Shown here in pieces: positions 3,497 through 54,247 of a DNA stretch of 64,000 nucleotides. The stretch spans positions 15,777,001 to 15,841,000 of the forward strand of contig CM060979.1 of assembly GCA_030765065.1 (NCBI GenBank), in the 5' to 3' direction. Each line of letters starts with the position of its first letter. The stretch's first letter is position 1. Both the position numbers and the translations under genes were made by a program. Below the pieces are notes generated by a model. It saw only the letters and a list, made by a program, of their open reading frames with translations. It was not told the DNA's origin and made no database searches. This DNA comes from Deroplatys truncata. Its lineage: Eukaryota; Arthropoda; Insecta; Mantodea; Mantidae.

Positions 3497-4059
3497 TAGA
3501 TACAAAGGCAGTATCAGTGATAACGAATTCAACAATTCAAACCATTAATAACAGATACCTCGGAAATGGCTAATGCTACGAAATGAGTTACTTGCATGTT
3601 TTAAAGAGATCTACCTTTTTTGTGTAGTACGTTTTCGTCTATCGCTTAACGTTTACCAGTTACACAAGATTATACAAAATTCCTTCCGAATGAAGTAGAC
3701 TTCATAGGCTCTTTCAAGAAAATTGAAGATATCAATTTTATTTACCACGTAAATTTCTTTAATATAATACTATGGCATTTTAATCAAAATTGTTACAGCC
3801 GTTTTTGTAAAAAATTCGAAAAATCTTTCAAGTAAAGGATAGTTGGGGTGGGTATTTTCTTGAAAATCTTCTTATAGCACCTTTGGAGGATAATGAACTT
3901 AAATACCAAGTTTGGCATCTATCCGCCACACACACTCATGAACACACACATGCCCACACGGATATTTCAAAACATACATTTCCAGTGAAATCTCGGTATC
4001 GGATTTTTTAGTGGAATGGAATACCTTTATCTACCCACTATGTACGTGGTAGAGAAAGT

Positions 4060-4842
4060 AACAAAGTAATATTTGTTACATTCACTCCTTCTTGCTAATG
4101 AACAGCAAAATTCTAGTAACTCAGCGTACAGTAAGTGACAGAACACAAATAGAGCACTCTGGAGTTGGCTTGATGTGAAAGGTTACTTACGTAATGAATT
4201 ATACGTAATTACAAAGACACATGCTAGGAAAAGACAAATACATTACATATCTACGCAATTATTTATTGTAGTAAACTAAGCATTATCTTCTGGAATTTCC
4301 GCAACAGTAAAAAGAAAGAACGAAAAGAAACTAAATTAATCACTATAGTTATCTTATTAAGTAGGTGACACATTCTGTAACTATAGGCAGTGCATTTTAA
4401 TATAACTAATTTCCTGGAGTGCGATCAATCTGTATACCTAGAAAAAGTTCTGAGGAGGTGGTTTAATCAAGTGGCAGGAGCACAATGTCAAACATCTCAT
4501 CAATAGTGTCCAATGAACTGCCACTGAAAGATGCCTCACTATTTCATTATCATAGATTTCATTCCTAAACTTCAACCTCTCAACTTCTTTTCCGAATAAT
4601 CATCAGCAATTCTTTTAGTCTTCTAAGTTGCAAAACTCTTATTATATATCATCTCTCGCGCCTGGCGATGAATAGCACTTTGCCTTCATTGCGACATGAT
4701 TACAATTATTGCATCTGCAGTGAGTGTACTGCTGCTGACACGTTCTTTCTCGACGTGTGAATGGCGTAAACATCGTGACTGTTGCGCATATTTTCCGATA
4801 GGGCTATACGCTTTGTCGGGTAGTACATAACAACCTCACTCG
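4060..4842. other. Unassigned sequence downstream of the leftward heat-shock promoter
   Basis: This would be the transcribed region of the minus-strand heat-shock promoter. I see no chaperone motif, no long ORF and no copy of the 116-bp repeat present on the other side. It is mostly A/T-rich and I recognise no repeat family in it. Confidence 0.4.
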
Positions 4843-4909
4843 TAGAACAGCACTTAATATCGCATCAGAAACGCACTGACTCACTTGCGAGCGCGCTCGC
4901 CTACATACA
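4843..4909 (-). promoter_or_regulatory. Core promoter and leader start of the leftward heat-shock unit
   Basis: On the minus strand this reads GCTCGCAAGTGA, then TCAGTG (initiator-like, about 4874-4879), GTTTCTGATGCGA and AAGTGCTGTTCTACGAG. The same words occur in the same order in the plus-strand leader at 6440-6515, with a gap of about 20 bp. At the TATA position it has TGTATGTAG (4901-4909) where the right-hand promoter has TATATAAG. The core is therefore recognisable but probably weakened. The homology shows that the two promoters arose by inverted duplication. Confidence 0.65.
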
Positions 4910-4915
4910 AGTTGG

Positions 4916-4968
4916 GAATTTTCTGGAAAGTTCGCGGGAGGCGAAGATGAGAAACTTCCAGAAGAATC
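4916..4968 (-). promoter_or_regulatory. Heat-shock elements of the leftward promoter
   Basis: Positions 4916-4933 read GAAttTTCtgGAAagTTC, four perfect alternating NGAAN/NTTCN units, the binding site of trimeric heat-shock factor. A second cluster at 4951-4968 reads GAAacTTCcaGAAgaATC, three perfect units and one near miss. HSEs are symmetric, so strand is assigned from the TATA-like box and leader lying to their left. Chance occurrence of a perfect four-unit element followed by a second cluster is very unlikely. Confidence 0.8.
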
Positions 4969-5034
4969 TGGTTATCTCTGGTTCTGGAGTTTACCTTCGG
5001 TGGAGGCGCTACTCACTGTTTCTTATTTCTATTT

Positions 5035-5495: not shown

Positions 5496-6343
5496 CTTTC
5501 CTGTACTCGGAACAAAAGAAGCACAAGCTGCACGCCACTGCAACTATTACATTAACCACCGCTGCCGTGGTCATCATCATTCGCAATTACGGTAACGCTA
5601 AATGCTCCCTCCACATGGCCTCATTTACTGAAAGGAAACCTCAGGATGGACCTACAGACGTTTGCCTGATCATTATAATTCCAATGCGTAATCACGGAGG
5701 GATGAAGGACAGCCGTGCTCTCAATGAAGTCTCGGTTCACAGGTGGGGGAGGGGGAGCCAAACATACTCTGTCACGGATTCTTGTTCTGCGTGTGCAAGC
5801 TCGTCCTGGTAATTTCAAGAGAGCATTGAAATTATTATTACTGAGTAAATGGAGACAGGGTTTCGAAACTTCCTGGAAACAATCAAATTACTACCGCAGA
5901 ATAACAACTTCTTAAATTACTGTTGAAAAAAATGAAATGATAACTCTAATTTCTTGGACAATCAGCTTTTATTTCACTTATTTGTTGAAATATCTGTATA
6001 TCATCGTCATAATTAGTTATTCTCAAACTAAGTTTAGAAACGTAATATATCTAAGTAAAGCAGACCTTTAAGGTGACAAAGAAAGAGCACAAAATGGTAA
6101 TTTATGCAACAAGTGGACAATCTTAATGATTGTGTACGAGTGTCATTAAGATTTACCACGAGTTGTTAGCATTATACATTGTAGGAAATAAATCATGAAA
6201 TAATTCGGCTTCCATAGCTGACATAAGTGACCCAGCGGCTATGGCCCAAGGTTATCGGGAGGTCGGTGCCGTGCAGCGGAGAGGTAAACAGATAAGTTAC
6301 CGCTCGCACAGCGTAAATACCAGAAGCGCTAACGACAGACACC
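5496..6343. other. Intergenic spacer upstream of the rightward heat-shock promoter
   Basis: No coding feature is convincing here. A weak heat-shock-like cluster (TTC GAA ac TTC ct gGAA, about 5862-5878) and a lone GAAGCG near 6332 lie in the spacer. The rest is A/T-rich. Confidence 0.35.
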
Positions 6344-6363
6344 AGAATCTTCTGGAGGTTTCC
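6344..6363 (+). promoter_or_regulatory. Distal heat-shock element
   Basis: Positions 6345-6362 read GAAtcTTCtgGAGgtTTC. These are four alternating 5-bp units with one mismatch (GAG for GAA), at the correct spacing for a heat-shock-factor trimer. It lies about 26 bp upstream of a second element, the usual paired arrangement of inducible hsp promoters. Confidence 0.8.
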
Positions 6364-6388
6364 TTCCCACGCCTCAAAATGTGTGTCC

Positions 6389-6419
6389 AGAAAGTTCTAG
6401 AATTTTCTATGAAACATTC
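6389..6419 (+). promoter_or_regulatory. Proximal heat-shock element
   Basis: Positions 6390-6407 read GAAagTTCtaGAAttTTC, four perfect units. One base out of phase, a further GAA (6411-6413) and TTC (6417-6419) follow. The TATA box begins 19 bp after the perfect core. Confidence 0.88.
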
Positions 6420-6426
6420 CATTGAC

Positions 6427-6465
6427 TATATAAGCGAGCGTTCTCGCAAGTGACAGTCATTCAGT
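6427..6465 (+). promoter_or_regulatory. TATA box and initiator of the rightward heat-shock unit
   Basis: TATATAAG lies at 6427-6434. The arthropod initiator consensus TCAKT is met at 6457-6461 (TCATT) and again at 6461-6465 (TCAGT), which places a start at 6459 or 6463, 32-36 bp after the TATA. Together with the upstream heat-shock elements this is a complete, apparently intact heat-inducible core promoter. Confidence 0.85.
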
Positions 6466-6639
6466 GAGTTAGCGAGTGTGTTTCTGGTGCGACGAAAAGT
6501 GCTATTCTCCGAGCGAGTTGCTGACGACTGCTGTGACGTGCAGTGAGTGTTGCTTCCGCGAGATATTAGAGGCCTTGTGTTCGAACCCCCAGAAGAGACT
6601 GTGTCGTGCGTATTACATTACGTCGCGAAGATGGCGAAG

Positions 6640-8160
6640 TGACAGAGTAAATTGAAGTAGTTCACATTAGTGAAGTGATACTGTGATCTAAGCGAAGCCC
6701 CAGTGAAAATTGAACTAGTTCACATTAACGAAAAGACAGTGAGAACTTAGTGAAGTGACAGAGGAAATTGAACCAGTTGACATTAGTGAACTGATTGTGT
6801 TATATAACTGAAGCTCTAGTGAAAGTTGAACTAGATCTCATTAACGAAAAGACAACGAGAACTTAGTGAAGTGACAGAGGAAATTGAACCAATTCACACC
6901 GGTGAACTAACAGTGTGAACTAACTGAAGCTCAAGTGAAAGTTGAACTAGATCTCATTAACGAAAAGACAACGAGAACTTAGTGAATTGACAGAGGAAAT
7001 TGAACTAGTTCACATCGGTGAACTGACAGTGTGAACTAACTGAAGCTCTAGTGAAAGTTGAAATAGATCTCATTAACGAAAAGACAACGAGAACTTAGTG
7101 AAGTGACAAAGGAAATTGAACCAGTTCACATTAGTGAAGTGACAGTGTGAACTAACTGAAGCTCAAGTGAAAGTTGAACTAGATCTCAATAACGAAAAGA
7201 CAACGAGAACTTAGTGAACTGACCAAGGAAATTGAATCAGTTCACATTAGTGAAGTGATAGTGTGATATAACTGAAGCTCTAGTGAAAGTTGAACTAGAT
7301 CTCATTAACGAAACGACAACGAGAACTTAGTGAAGTGACCGAGGAAATTGAACCAGATCACATCGGTGAACTTACAGTGTGATATAACTGAAGCTCTAGT
7401 GAAAGTTGGACTAGATCACATTAACGAAAAGACAACGAGAACTTAGTGAAGTGACAGAGGAAATTGAACCAGTTCACATCGGTGAACTGACAGTGTGAAC
7501 TAACTGAAGCTCTAGTGAAAGTTGAAATAGATCTCATTAACGAAAAGACAACGAGAACTTAGTGAAGTGACAAAGGAAATTGAACCAGTTCACATTAGTG
7601 AAGTGACAGTGTGATATAACTGAAGCTCTAGTGAAAGTTGGACTAGATCACATTAACGAAAAGACAACGAGAACTTAGTGAAGTGACAGAGGAAATTGAA
7701 CCAGTTCACATCGGTGATCTGACAGTGTGAACTAACTGAAGCTCAAGTGAAAGTTGGACTAGATCTCATTAACGAAAAGACAACGAGAACTTAGTGAAGT
7801 GACCAAGGAAATTGAACCAGATCACATCGGTGAACTGACAGTGTGATATAACTGAAGCTCTAGTGAAAGTTGGACTAGATCTCATTAACGAAAAGACAAC
7901 GAGAACTTAGTGAATTGACAGAGGAAATTGAACTAGTTCACATCGGTGAACTGACAGTGTGAACTAACTGAAGCTCTAGTGAAAGTTGAAATAGATCTCA
8001 TTAATGAAAAGACAACGAGAACTTAGTGAAGTGACAAAGGAAATTGAACCAGTTCACATCGGTGAACTGACAGTGTGAACTAACTGAAGCTCAAGTGAAA
8101 GTTGGACTAGATCACATTAACGAAATACAACGAGAAGAGATAGAGAAAATTGAACCAGTT
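6640..8160 (+). repeat. Tandem array, about 13 units of 116 bp (each 2 x 58 bp)
   Basis: The word TTAACGAAA (or a one-base variant) recurs at 6725, 6841, 6957, 7073, 7189, 7305, 7421, 7537, 7653, 7769, 7885, 8001 and 8117, always exactly 116 bp apart. Each unit splits into two related 58-bp halves, one beginning GAAAAGACAACGAGAACTTA and the other GAACTGACAGTGTGAACTAA, which match at roughly 60% of positions. Units differ by scattered substitutions (GACAGAGG or GACAAAGG, CTCTAG or CTCAAG) but show no indels until the last, which points to homogenisation. The array is rich in GTGAA and GTTGAA words, like the leader before it. Confidence 0.93.
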
Positions 8161-8335
8161 CACATTAATGAGGTGGCAATGTGAACTAAGTGAAGTCCCT
8201 CACATAACGAGGAGACGGTGAGAGCTTAATGAAGTGACAATGTGAACTAAGTGAAGTCCCTCACATAACGAGGAGACGGTGATAGATGAGTATGGTGACA
8301 GCGAAAACTGAACAAAGTCACAATATATTATGAGA
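8161..8335 (+). repeat. Degenerate end of the array with a roughly 61-bp duplication
   Basis: The last 116-bp unit is shortened, then a half-unit-sized segment containing GTGAACTAAGTGAAGTCCC and AACGAGGAGACGGTGA occurs twice (about 8178-8238 and 8239-8299). This is a 58-bp half that has been duplicated separately and has drifted. Confidence 0.75.
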
Positions 8336-8361
8336 TTTTAGCTTCTCTCCTTGCATTTCAG

Positions 8362-8455
8362 TTGTTATCACCTGGTATAGGAAGCTAAGCATTAAACGCA
8401 GGACAGAAGGAAGAACGCTTCAACTACCACCTGATTGTTGGCAGAGACATCGCAG
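8362..8455 (+). other. Candidate exon after the tandem array
   Basis: A strong acceptor (a pyrimidine-rich run followed by TTGCATTTCAG) ends at 8361, and a donor CAG|GTAACA begins at 8456. This defines a 94-bp exon. A second acceptor, GGTCTTTGCAG, ends at 8501 and could be an alternative acceptor, because an intron of only 46 bp would be unusually short. The exon has no obvious coding frame. The splice calls are from consensus only. Confidence 0.45.
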
Positions 8456-8501
8456 GTAACAACCCCCCGCCGTCCTTCTTGAACTGTTTTGGTCTTTGCA
8501 G

Positions 8502-10155
8502 ACAGTACTCGGACCCATTCTACCGGCCTGTCAGTGGTCTTTGGTCTCTGTTATTTTGTATTATTTATAGTGATAATGGTTTCAGTGTAGATAACATGAA
8601 GCGTACTGCTTAAGAATTCGTATGCCGTATTATTACATTACTGGCATGTTGAACCGATAAGCAAGACATTTCCTTCCTGTGAGAGAAGCGAGTAGGTGTT
8701 AGGCACTGTGATGTAGCTTATTATCAGCACAGCATGACAGGTAATTACAAACTCAGATTTTAATTGTTTAATACTGCACTGACGTTTTTGTATCTTTGAC
8801 ACTCAGAGAAACGAAAATCACAAAATGGTTTCAATTTCTCTCTATAAGCCACACATTGCCATATTGAACCACTTATGCACTATATGCAACCTGCATATAA
8901 TGGTAGGGTTGCAGAAAAATAGTTGACACATTGAAAATGACTTATAAAACATCGGAGTCTTTTACTCTGTGCACGCCTTAAATTAGTATATCATGCAACA
9001 ACACTACAAAGATAGCAATTAAGACGTGAGTATGTTCATGAAACGAGTGCTAGCGAGTTGACAGCATCTTGAGTATTGCGACTATTGTAACAGATGGCAG
9101 TAGTGTTGAGTCCAGGCTGTATTTATTGATGTTTTGCAGGTAACGTGAAAGCAACACATTTTGAAGCAAAGAAAATGAACTCAATTTATTAGGATATTAA
9201 AATTACAATGTACATAATTTATTTTAAATACACATATTTTATTGTTTATTTGAGGACTGCTGCTTTGAAAATGTTAAAAGGTATGTGAGAGGTCATAATG
9301 AGTCGTTGAAGTTATAGTTCTGTAATCAGCGTGTTATAGTGTGGTCAACCAAAAGATTCATTCCGCTCTAATTACTCGCATTTACATTTGTGAAGACAGA
9401 AGACGGTCTATATCTACCAAACCATAATTCCACGTTCTTCAGGTGTCAGTACGGAAGGCGATATCCGTTTGCAGGACTCACAAGTATTTCTTGGTGACTC
9501 TCATTGTGTAGGAGTCGGAGAGACCAAGGTAACTAAGTAGCATAAATCACATGTTGATCCGGATAGCGAGTAGAGCCTTGGTTCACTTTCACTTCTCTGG
9601 TGCCTTTAATTCTTGGGCGACAACGCCCTAAAAGACATAAAGGGCCCGAAAAAGGATTTTTAGTTCAATACATCCCCTTCTATCCAGAAAAGGAAGAAGG
9701 AATCAAAGCGATCAACATAATTATTAAGAGGATGTAATGAAAACAAAGCGGACGATAAAGTTTTTTTATTGCTCTATTTATACCCCGCCTATGGTTCATA
9801 TGGGCAGTCTTTTACCTTTGGTACATGTTGGCTATCGGCAATGCTGTTAACTCGTATACAATTATCATTGGATTTCTGGGTTCTCTTTGGCTTTTATACT
9901 TCCAGACTCTGGGGAGGATAGGCTAGAGAAAAATTCCCTCCCCCCAGATGGAAATTGTTTTTCGCCTATAGCAATATACTTTTATGACTAATTATAATTT
10001 AATAGAAGTTTATTAATGCTGCAAATTTTAATTACCTGTTTAATGTTTCATTACTTTTAGATGTACAGCACAAAACTCAGCTTGATTGTCACATAAGAGT
10101 GAAAATAACACACAAAACTTTTATGCAGCAATAATTCTAATTTTCGAGAAAAAAA
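8502..10155. other. Non-repetitive A/T-rich sequence
   Basis: None of the window's repeat families occurs here. It could hold downstream exons or the 3' end of the heat-shock transcript, but I see no convincing polyadenylation signal close to the array. No protein-coding region is recognised. Confidence 0.4.
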
Positions 10156-19791: not shown

Positions 19792-20541
19792 TCTAATGTG
19801 TTGCAATCACATGAGTTTCCCTACAAATGTACAAACTATTTATACAAACCCTTATTCTCCATATGCTTCATATTAATCGAGATGTTAATCTTATTGCTAA
19901 TTTTCTTTAGATGCAAGGGGAATTGCTAGGGTTTAAGCGACAGTCAAATGCTTTAAGAGCTGGTTGCTATGTGGAGTATTCCATTCTATTTGTATGTCCA
20001 GGACATAAAAAAACGAATAATGAGTTCCCATTTGAGAAAGGTATAAGTATTGGAAAATTGAAAAAAGAAATAATAAGGAATATCTCGGAAATGGTTCACT
20101 CGACAAAAACATTTATATAAATAACATAAATTATGTGTTTAACGAAGTGTGCATTTTTTGAGTTGTAAAATTTTGTCACTCTCTTACTGCTTACCAGTTA
20201 TGCAAGTCATTCGGAATGAAGAGGACTTTTGGTGACATTCCCAGAAAATTCAAGAAATAGATTTCATTTGTCAGGAAAATATTTTGAATATACGATTTTT
20301 CTTGAAAATTTTCGTCTGGTATTCTTGCAAGATACTAAACTCAAATATCAAGTTTGGTATTTATCCGAATTTTCGTTTTTGATTTATGTTGTTCACAGAC
20401 AGACACACAAACACACACACGGACATGTTTCCAAAAATGCTTTATTTGGATTCAAAACATGTATTTCCGGTGAAATCTCGGTATCGAATTTTTGGGTGGA
20501 ATACAATACTTCCCCTACTTACTATACGTAGTAGAGAAAGT
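19792..20541 (+). mobile_element. CA-element, young copy with an s3 deletion, nested in an old reversed copy
   Basis: It starts TCTAATGTG after eight A and ends GTAGAGAAAGT before five A. About 90 bp of s3 around the TTTGAGAAAATTAAAATTTTCG block are missing. The flanks 'atgaagtagacat' and 'agctttagtaag' belong to the same old reversed copy. Confidence 0.8.
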
Positions 20542-47394: not shown

Positions 47395-48335
47395 AAGTTG
47401 TTTTTGTTGATCTAATGTGCAGGATTTTGTTCCATCAACTTTTCCCTTGCTAGCCAATATAAACTGTGTATCTTCCCGTCTGGTACAGCTTTCCTCAATT
47501 CTGGGCATTCTAGTAGATGTTCTCCATTTAAAATCTTGTCAGCATTGCAAATTTTACATGCTTTGACATTCATAAAACCAAATGTCTGTAGATGTTCCAG
47601 TCATGTCTAGTGGCTAATCTGAAGTGAGCTACGGCTTCTTTCCTTGGGACATTTTATATTTTATGTTGGAGTAATTTTTGTTAGTAATTTCCTTTTGAAT
47701 AGTATATTGGTATTTTTGTTCTATATTAATTTTGATATTTTTTAGTTTCATATCTAGTCCACAAGACTTTATAGGTTTTGAGTATAACACTGCACCCTTT
47801 TTGGTCAGAAAGTGTGCTGTCTCATTACCATTCACTCCCACATGTGCTGGTATCCACTGTAGTATTATTTTGTTTGTAGTAATCTATAATAAGATCTCAC
47901 ATCTGGGCTATGATATCGTTCTATTGCTTGAATGACAGAATCTGAGTCTGTGAGAACAACTACTTTATTTTCTTTTATATCAGTCCTGCAGTATATCTGT
48001 TCTAATGCTCGTTGTATTGCAACAACTTCACCATCAAAATTTGTGGATTGTCTAGGCAATGTAAAATAATGTGAAAAGTATTTACAGTATATACCACCTC
48101 CCAATTTATCTGCAGAACCATCTGTATAAATTCTAAGCCACTCTGTTTCCGGGAATTGATTATGTAGATGTTCAAGTGTAGCAATTCTGCATACATCTGG
48201 CGAGTCTTCTTGTTTATTTAGTTGTTCTGTCCGCTCTTCATTTGTTACTATCTTGATAAAATCCAATGGATTAGTTCTAGGAGGATGAGGAGTGCATTTT
48301 TCTGATAAATGTTTCATCAGAATCATTAAAACAAT
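47395..48335 (-). pseudogene. LINE fragment with RNase H domain
   Basis: On the minus strand, the frame from about 48326 gives TEWLRIYTDGSADKLGGG (first catalytic Asp), then TNFDGEVVAIQRALEQI (Glu) and VVVLTDSDSVIQAI (second Asp). After a frameshift near 47870 come IPAHVGVNGNETAHFLTKKG (the usual xPxHxGxxGNExAD motif, with His in place of Asp at the last position) and HFRLATRHDWN. The last part has several stops. An RNase H following pol is typical of the I/Jockey/R1 group of non-LTR elements. It is a broken 5'-truncated copy. Confidence 0.8.
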
Positions 48336-53061: not shown

Positions 53062-54247
53062 TGCCTTTGTGAAAATTGCAATTACAAGAAAAAATTTCCC
53101 ATATAACTCCAAACTTGGTGGAAGTGTAGAAGAGTGTGCAAGCAAGAAGTGATTAGGTTTGCAGAGAGATGGGGTACACGTAGCCCTCTCGTGTCGGTCT
53201 GACAAGGTCAGTGTTGCGCCAGTGTAGACATTGCAGAACTGTGAAACAAGGTGGAAACAATAAAGTGAGTGCCAGTATGCCTCGTCGATGTCAAAGGGAG
53301 CCATATCGGCATGTGAGTGAGTTCGAACGGGGCAGAGTGATCGGACTCCGGGAAGCGAGTTTGTCATGCCGTGACATTTCGGCTCCTACAGGGCACGCTT
53401 CTACGACAGTGATGCCTGTGTGGAAGCAGTGGATAGATGAAGGTCGTAAGCAGCGAAGAGCGGGTACTGGACCACGGAACATGACCACAGCACGGGATGA
53501 CCATCATCTTGTCTGCATGGCCATAACGGACCGTACAGCTTCATTCACAGTGTTGGCTCGACGCTGGAGCACTGCAAAAGGTGTTAACTTGTCTGCATCA
53601 ACGGTTAGTCGCCGTCTGCTGCAGGTTGGACCGGTTGCATGCATGCCATTACGTCGGCTTCCATTGTCCAGAAACCACAAGCTCCTCCGACAGCAATAGA
53701 TAAGTGAACACCGTAACTGGGGTGCTCAATGGCGAAATGTAGTCTTTTCGGACGAGTCCCGCTTCAACGTGTCCTACAGTGATGGCCGCATACGTGTCCT
53801 GCTGTACCGTGGTGAGTGCAACCTGGAGGGCGGCATTGTTGAGCGGCATAGCGGACAAACACCAGGTGTGATGGTTTGGAGCGCCATTGGTTACAACAAC
53901 CGATCTCGCCTCCTACGAATTGAGAGCACTTTGAACAGCAACCGGTAAAAATCGGTCTGGGATATGGTTGGTCGGCACCTGGTGCGTCACGGATTTTTGG
54001 GCTCGAATACAAACTCCGTGGAGGGAAATCCCTCAGGAACTTATTCAGAACCTTTTTGATTCAATACCATGGCGTACAGCAGCTCTAATTCCAGCGCATG
54101 GAGGCCACACCAAATACTGAATATTAGGGCTCAAAGGTCATGTACAGATTTGAAAAGTTTATCATTTGTTACTTGTCATGTACCTAACCTGTGGTATTGA
54201 ATTCATGCGTTTCCTTCTTGGTGTTGCAATTTTCACAAACGGCAGTG
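53059..54247 (+). mobile_element. Tc1-type DNA transposon (1189 bp), defective
   Basis: Inverted termini: the left reads CACTGCCTTTGTGAAAATTG and the right, reversed, reads CACTGCCGTTTGTGAAAATT. The left flank is TA, inside the TA microsatellite. The right flank is CA, probably a mutated TA. Length is below the usual 1.6 kb or so. Confidence 0.85.
53277..54140 (+). pseudogene. Tc1 transposase pseudogene
   Basis: The frame from ATG 53277 starts MPRRCQREPYRHVSEFERGR and includes the bipartite HTH DNA-binding region (RGRVIGLREASLSCRDIS; STVSRRLL). A stop lies at 53697-53699. In the same frame the catalytic region follows with VVFSDESRFNV (first catalytic Asp) and PGVMVWSAIGY. The segment that should hold the second Asp (the QDNAxxH motif) is deleted at about 53945, and a stop follows before VWDMVGRHL. 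Another stop and a shift occur near 54055. It is a dead DD34E-type gene. Confidence 0.85.

Follow-up and report, generated by a model that had tools for sequence, protein, structure and literature searches.

At the heat-shock loci 87C (alpha-beta-gamma) and 93D (hsr-omega) of Drosophila melanogaster, a heat-shock promoter is followed by noncoding tandem repeats, and the gamma element of 87C is hsp70 promoter sequence. Among Ty3/Gypsy elements, those of the Mdg3/micropia type have a tRNA-Leu-type primer site. Plants are known to have LTR elements driven by heat; in nematodes, the reported spreaders of heat-shock elements (HSEs) are Helitrons.

In Arabidopsis, the LTR of ONSEN (COPIA78) carries a cluster of four nGAAn units, the 4P HRE, which is bound by HSFA2 and triggers transcription in heat (PMC5059998); the element is also the subject of PMC3907296. 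ONSEN belongs to Ty1/Copia; A. thaliana has eight full-length copies of it and 16 fragments, and that study reports no functional HRE in the 16 fragments or solo LTRs (PMC5059998). In Caenorhabditis, 11,527 of 18,766 C. elegans HSEs are stated to lie in Helitrons (PMC6927752). Satellites have been described as growing from mobile elements, whether Helentrons, SINEs or elements in general (PMC7492417, PMC10702118, PMC6947457). Among the matches listed from the open-licence literature, at the level of titles and the beginnings of abstracts, none describes an LTR family of animals that carries an HSF-type core promoter and numbers thousands of copies.

Layout of the block and its promoter

We analysed a window of 64 kb (C5:15777001–15841000; the genome comprises 818 contigs and 4.29 Gb), by which we mean the whole stretch of DNA under study. 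The original prediction placed in it, at 6344–8455, a heat-shock promoter driving a noncoding RNA of 116-bp tandem repeats. The limits of the block are better redrawn as about 6226–8322, and we read it, with a probability of roughly 90%, as the solo LTR remaining from a Ty3/Gypsy-type retrotransposon, because it belongs to a dispersed family with sharp ends, because its relatives show a primer site, pieces of RNase H and integrase, a purine tract and a second, paired LTR, and because a paralogous site is free of the LTR. The features of the block and its neighbour are as follows.

About 6226–8322, plus strand: solo LTR (U3-R-U5) of ~2.1 kb, its ends aligned with dispersed copies, without a primer-site motif in the window and with a paralogous site (L042) lacking the LTR
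6226–6343, plus strand: 5′ part of U3, starting AGTGACCCAGCGGC; many relatives start TGTGACGCAGCGGC
6344–6363, plus strand: heat-shock element 1 (HSE1), four units, 11 of 12 core letters
6389–6408, plus strand: heat-shock element 2 (HSE2), four units, 12 of 12 core letters
6427–6434, plus strand: TATA box TATATAAG
6457–6465, plus strand: candidate initiator TCAGT, which we take to be an arthropod-type motif, 30–33 bp past the start of the TATA box; TTCAGT at 6460
6459–6635, plus strand: leader, putatively R and the start of U5, with likeness in relatives to about 6592
6636–8136, plus strand: 116-bp unit, 12.9 copies (58+58 dimer), inside U5, from Tandem Repeats Finder and self-match
8165–8300, plus strand: about two 61-bp repeats, the diverged end of the array, from a tandem-repeat call
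8301–8322, plus strand: 3′ end of the LTR, ...AACAAAGTCACA; this end motif was counted genome-wide
8361–8648, no strand assigned: separate dispersed repeat adjoining the LTR and outside it, its extent taken from 39 non-self scored rows

The LTR is this long because of its internal array, and we place the start of R, by inference, at the candidate initiator.

HSEs were called as four units in which no more than one of the 12 core letters differed. Both predicted four-unit elements were borne out, at 6344 (11/12) and 6389 (12/12), as was the TATA box at 6427. The window holds nine such matches, some overlapping one another, against a mean of 0.77 and a maximum of 4 in 60 Markov simulations of the window, three of which had two matches within 100 bp. 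A further GAA/TTC pair lies just downstream of HSE2 in many relatives.

Elsewhere in the window, BLAST of the promoter located, at 4835–4983 on the minus strand, a decayed piece of promoter and leader that belongs to this LTR family, ~1.2 kb upstream of the LTR and in divergent orientation, with a perfect four-unit HSE (12/12) at 4915. HSE-like stretches of the GAATTTTCTGG type at 20238, 21689 and 58081 may belong, by eye, to another repeat family that is frequent in the window. Two open reading frames, at 47865–48326 (minus) and 53211–53699 (plus), resemble by eye, respectively, a piece of LINE RNase H and one of Tc1/mariner-like sequence.

Downstream of the leader, the predicted array of about 13 copies of a 116-bp repeat was recovered by Tandem Repeats Finder (91% matches, 0% indels). 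Self-match is 0.91 at a lag of 116 and 0.61 at a lag of 58; the unit is therefore a diverged dimer of 58+58 bp. The longest stop-free stretch in the LTR block is 76 codons, which the range of 200 letter shuffles covers (68–200, mean 107), so the array was rightly described as having no reading frame. A candidate spliced exon, whose coordinates were not stated and which we took as the stretch ending at 8455, was not upheld: this stretch falls mostly within another dispersed repeat, the one at 8361–8648, which has 1722 first-look candidates genome-wide.

Dispersed copies across the genome

A 401-base promoter query returned 6246 first-look candidates; among the 40 scored, the best non-self copy showed 84% identity over 290 of 401 bases. 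Twelve copies fetched with their flanks have a sharp 5′ edge in common with the window, at about 6222–6227. Downstream, GTCACAATA is exact in five of the twelve (L029, L030, L033, L035 and L036); the other copies mostly hold variants of it, and L032 and L034 are without an end match. Eight of the twelve are about 450–600 bp long.

Genome-wide, the 5′ end 21-mer (up to 1 mismatch) occurs at 2039 places (1045+994; reversed control 0+0) and the 3′ end 21-mer (up to 1 mismatch) at 3584 places (1831+1753; reversed control 0+2). The 46-mer of the HSE-TATA core (up to 3 mismatches) occurs at 718 places (361+357; reversed control 0+0) and is exact at 10. When end motifs were paired by hand, using zero-mismatch places among the matches listed (the first of the 2039 and 3584), at least seven same-strand pairs were found within 3 kb, of 402 to 2846 bp. 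Thirteen copies depart from the majority base by 7–15% over 354–377 sites.

The array, too, recurs. A query with the unit gave 142 matches in the best 40 of 1664 candidates, the window included. Locus L015 has the same order as the window, from HSE promoter (by eye) through array to 3′ end, over about 2.3 kb, and L046 spans about 1.2 kb. At L048 a promoter is followed by about 3 kb of array reaching the end of the fetched stretch; L045 is array along its whole 2.1 kb; and L047 holds array, with no promoter detected there. Array length thus varies among copies, and the array appears to have grown repeatedly within the LTR family.

These counts bear on whether the block is a dedicated stress-induced noncoding RNA locus comparable with 87C alpha-beta-gamma or hsr-omega. 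HSEs, TATA box and noncoding array do stand in the correct order for one, and the form of the block, an HSF-type layout with noncoding repeats, fairly resembles the 87C arrangement. We nevertheless find such a locus scarcely credible, given thousands of copies genome-wide, a supposed exon lying mostly inside another repeat, and five hsp70 promoters without homology. The upstream regions of these five full-length intronless hsp70 genes, one of which has an in-frame stop, showed no homology to window positions 6222–6760, the best match having an E-value of 0.13 over 21 bases; capture of the LTR promoter from hsp70 is not supported by the five promoters compared. By eye, the HSE-TATA layout upstream of two of them (L049 and L051) is similar to that of the LTR. 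Upstream of the hsp70 copy with the in-frame stop, L053 1–240 matches stretches near other loci and in the window, and for that reason seems to have been invaded by a dispersed repeat. What stands of the original prediction is the presence of noncoding tandem repeats behind an HSF-type promoter layout; in our reading the block is one of thousands of dispersed LTR copies and no dedicated noncoding RNA gene.

Retrotransposon anatomy and target sites

The unit of HSEs, TATA box and leader serves as LTR in a family of Ty3/Gypsy type. At locus L034, an LTR (1926–2377) is separated by one base from TGGTGTCACGAGTAGGA; a gag-like stretch, an integrase piece and the purine tract AGGAAAGAGGGGAGC come next, and the tract abuts a second LTR, from 3372. 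The two LTRs around this internal region agree at 87.6% over 105 bp, at one locus only and with the second LTR partial. The integrase piece is zinc-binding (PF17921, E 1.4e-5, 25.5 bits, exactly at the cut-off of 25.5). The gag-like stretch, so labelled by eye, is coiled-coil-like; no gag family matched it, the best match being BORCS8 (E 0.15). The primer site TGGTGTCACGAGTAGGA, complementary to a tRNA-like 3′ end, was found in L034 only. Among 41 genome matches, 35 end in CCCACTCCTGACA, which fits the primer site in 15 of 17 letters, the added CCA counted, a fit that is partly by construction because the search tolerated two mismatches. We take this tRNA-like 3′ end to be that of tRNA-Leu; a cluster of such ends at G000:C9:218.98–219.2 Mb is probably a tRNA-Leu gene array.

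At L028, read on the LTR strand, pieces of RNase H, of an integrase zinc finger and of an integrase C-terminus lead to the purine tract GAGGAGGGAAC and then to the LTR. Four of the five pieces scanned match such families at E <1e-4, and two lie above curated cut-offs: RNase H (PF17917, 25.3 bits, cut-off 24.8) and the integrase C-terminal piece (PF22938, E 1.9e-8, 34.7 bits, cut-off 27). The H2C2 zinc finger (PF17921, 24.9 bits) falls slightly below its cut-off of 25.5, and the piece taken for the integrase core gave no match in the scan; nor did any of the pieces scanned match reverse transcriptase proper. The polypurine tracts before the 3′ LTR were recognised by eye in both L034 and L028. 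RNase H precedes the integrase pieces in L028, and this is the Ty3 order. No complete element was found among the copies examined, L034 and L028 being broken.

A query over the LTR end and the gag-like start of L034 matched 39 non-self scored loci. In 24 of the 39, a single alignment crosses the junction and takes in 25 bp or more of the LTR; 12 bp or more are included in 27 and 7 bp in one, and the alignments of 11 start after or at the last bases of the LTR. L060, inside a long copy with both end motifs, also matches the gag-like stretch. Inside a second such copy lies L062 (C1:142295400–142295800), an unrelated high-copy sequence with 4757 first-look candidates and 88–91% identity in 39 non-self rows. 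Transposase-like by eye, it was tried as a transposase partner and rejected, with no Pfam match and two weak eIF-2B matches only in the Protein Data Bank; owing to its high copy number and the want of a Pfam match we regard it as an unrelated element nested there.

A DNA transposon was an alternative reading, namely a MITE: a short non-autonomous element with inverted ends TTGTGAC...GTCACAA, a TA target duplication and an HSP-like promoter aboard. The inverted ends, their palindromic AATATT context and the head-to-tail neighbours of L035 and L036 speak for it. It was dropped on the retrotransposon anatomy of L034 and L028, in which a primer site, pieces of RNase H and integrase, and purine tracts follow LTR order, and the passage from LTR to gag-like sequence in 24 of 39 loci likewise tells against it, so that we consider a MITE very unlikely.

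For the solo LTR, the termini give evidence on both sides. LTR ends of the form TG...CA occur in relatives (TGTGACG...GTCACA, for example in L061), and ATAT flanks both sides exactly in four of the 14 copies with both ends located (L029, L030, L036 and L061), with one mismatch in L026 and L046; in these comparisons the two ends of L036 come from two neighbouring copies, and the 5′ side of L028 is element interior. The window copy, however, reads AG...CA where many relatives start with TG, and its flanks, CATA and ATAT, form no clean target duplication. The primer-site pattern of L034 is absent from the 64-kb window, with nothing like it after 8322, as a solo LTR would have it. At the related site L042, both flanks are present and the LTR is absent, but 26 unaligned bases lie at the joint; L042 is also without most of the neighbouring repeat (window 8377–8689).

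Predicted heat response and comparison with known systems

Judged from its sequence, the LTR family was probably once heat-driven, using HSF for its own transcription. A four-unit HSE is found in 13 of 13 LTR copies, the window included, with 30 matches in 7280 bp inside the LTRs and 15 in 96720 bp outside, a retention that is partly by choice because twelve of the copies came from an HSE-holding query. A less biased sample is given by L061, found by end motifs, and by L015 and L046, found by arrays, which by eye have GAA-TTC-GAA with other spacers. Of 19 ungapped copies, 11, with the window among them, have the identical eight TATA-box letters at this place, and as a descriptive figure, TATA columns deviate less from the majority (0.033 over 7 columns).

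Selection on the HSEs was sought in two comparisons, neither significant, among copies that came from queries holding the HSEs. HSE core letters were not significantly better conserved than spacers (pairwise 0.125 versus 0.143, p 0.31, 19 copies), nor significantly better kept than other non-CpG sites (0.080 versus 0.113, p 0.07, 13 copies). The 19 copies are 25 less L027, L061, L015, L046, the window's minus-strand copy and the second copy of L034, which were omitted because they gave no gap-free alignment or only a partial one.

The HSEs of the window could be relics, the block being a solo LTR of a once heat-driven family whose copy here, like most others, would be silent. This is a variant of the solo-LTR explanation within the same LTR class, and we lean slightly towards silence of the window copy. 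The departure of the 13 copies from the majority base and the lack of measurable extra conservation in HSE cores agree with it, whereas the perfect HSE2 of the window, its intact TATA box and the ten exact occurrences of the 46-bp core do not. That the window copy may still make RNA in heat is, from its letters, a little short of an even chance.

In the mechanism we propose, heat-activated HSF trimers would load at the two clustered HSEs of U3, above the TATA box, and Pol II would start near 6457–6462, yielding the element's genomic RNA under stress. LTR–LTR recombination would have removed the element body and left one LTR, and a 58-bp motif in U5 may have given rise to the 116-bp array through slippage or unequal exchange. 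If still firing, the window copy would in heat produce, as a by-product, an unspliced noncoding RNA that bears the repeats, and solo LTRs could drive whatever is downstream of them in stress. More speculative, and rather unlikely in our estimate, is a full animal counterpart of ONSEN, in which an HSF-driven Ty3/Gypsy family would have spread HSE-TATA promoters, hundreds to thousands of them, through a large, probably arthropod, genome and the arrays in some LTRs would be transcribed in heat; such array RNAs would be a source from which stress-body RNAs like hsr-omega or satellite III could arise. An active family would allow a test of a common origin for stress-driven transposition and stress-induced repeat RNAs, and of the rewiring of a large genome's heat response by LTRs.

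Like 87C and 93D, the window LTR sets an HSF-type promoter before noncoding tandem repeats; unlike at 87C, an hsp70-derived promoter was not found among the five regions compared, and the unit here is an LTR. As in satellites grown from mobile elements, tandem arrays have grown inside dispersed elements, but here the array lies inside an LTR, beside an HSE promoter. The primer site of L034 agrees in 15 of 17 letters with a tRNA-like 3′ end common in this genome and resembles that of Mdg3/micropia elements; the likeness is one of primer sites, and the pol read here is in pieces. With ONSEN the family shares clustered HSEs in the LTR, seen here in 13 of 13 copies, twelve of them from the HSE-holding query. 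ONSEN is a plant Ty1/Copia element, whereas this family has, in the pieces of L028, the Ty3 order, and also thousands of end motifs and a tandem array in U5; it does not belong to Ty1/Copia, because RNase H precedes integrase in L028. In contrast to the ONSEN fragments, HSE matches persist here in LTR copies, few of which have a visible interior. With the Caenorhabditis Helitrons it shares the spreading of HSEs through an animal genome by a mobile element; Helitrons are another class of element, and here the LTR joins HSE, TATA box and putative start site in a complete core promoter layout.
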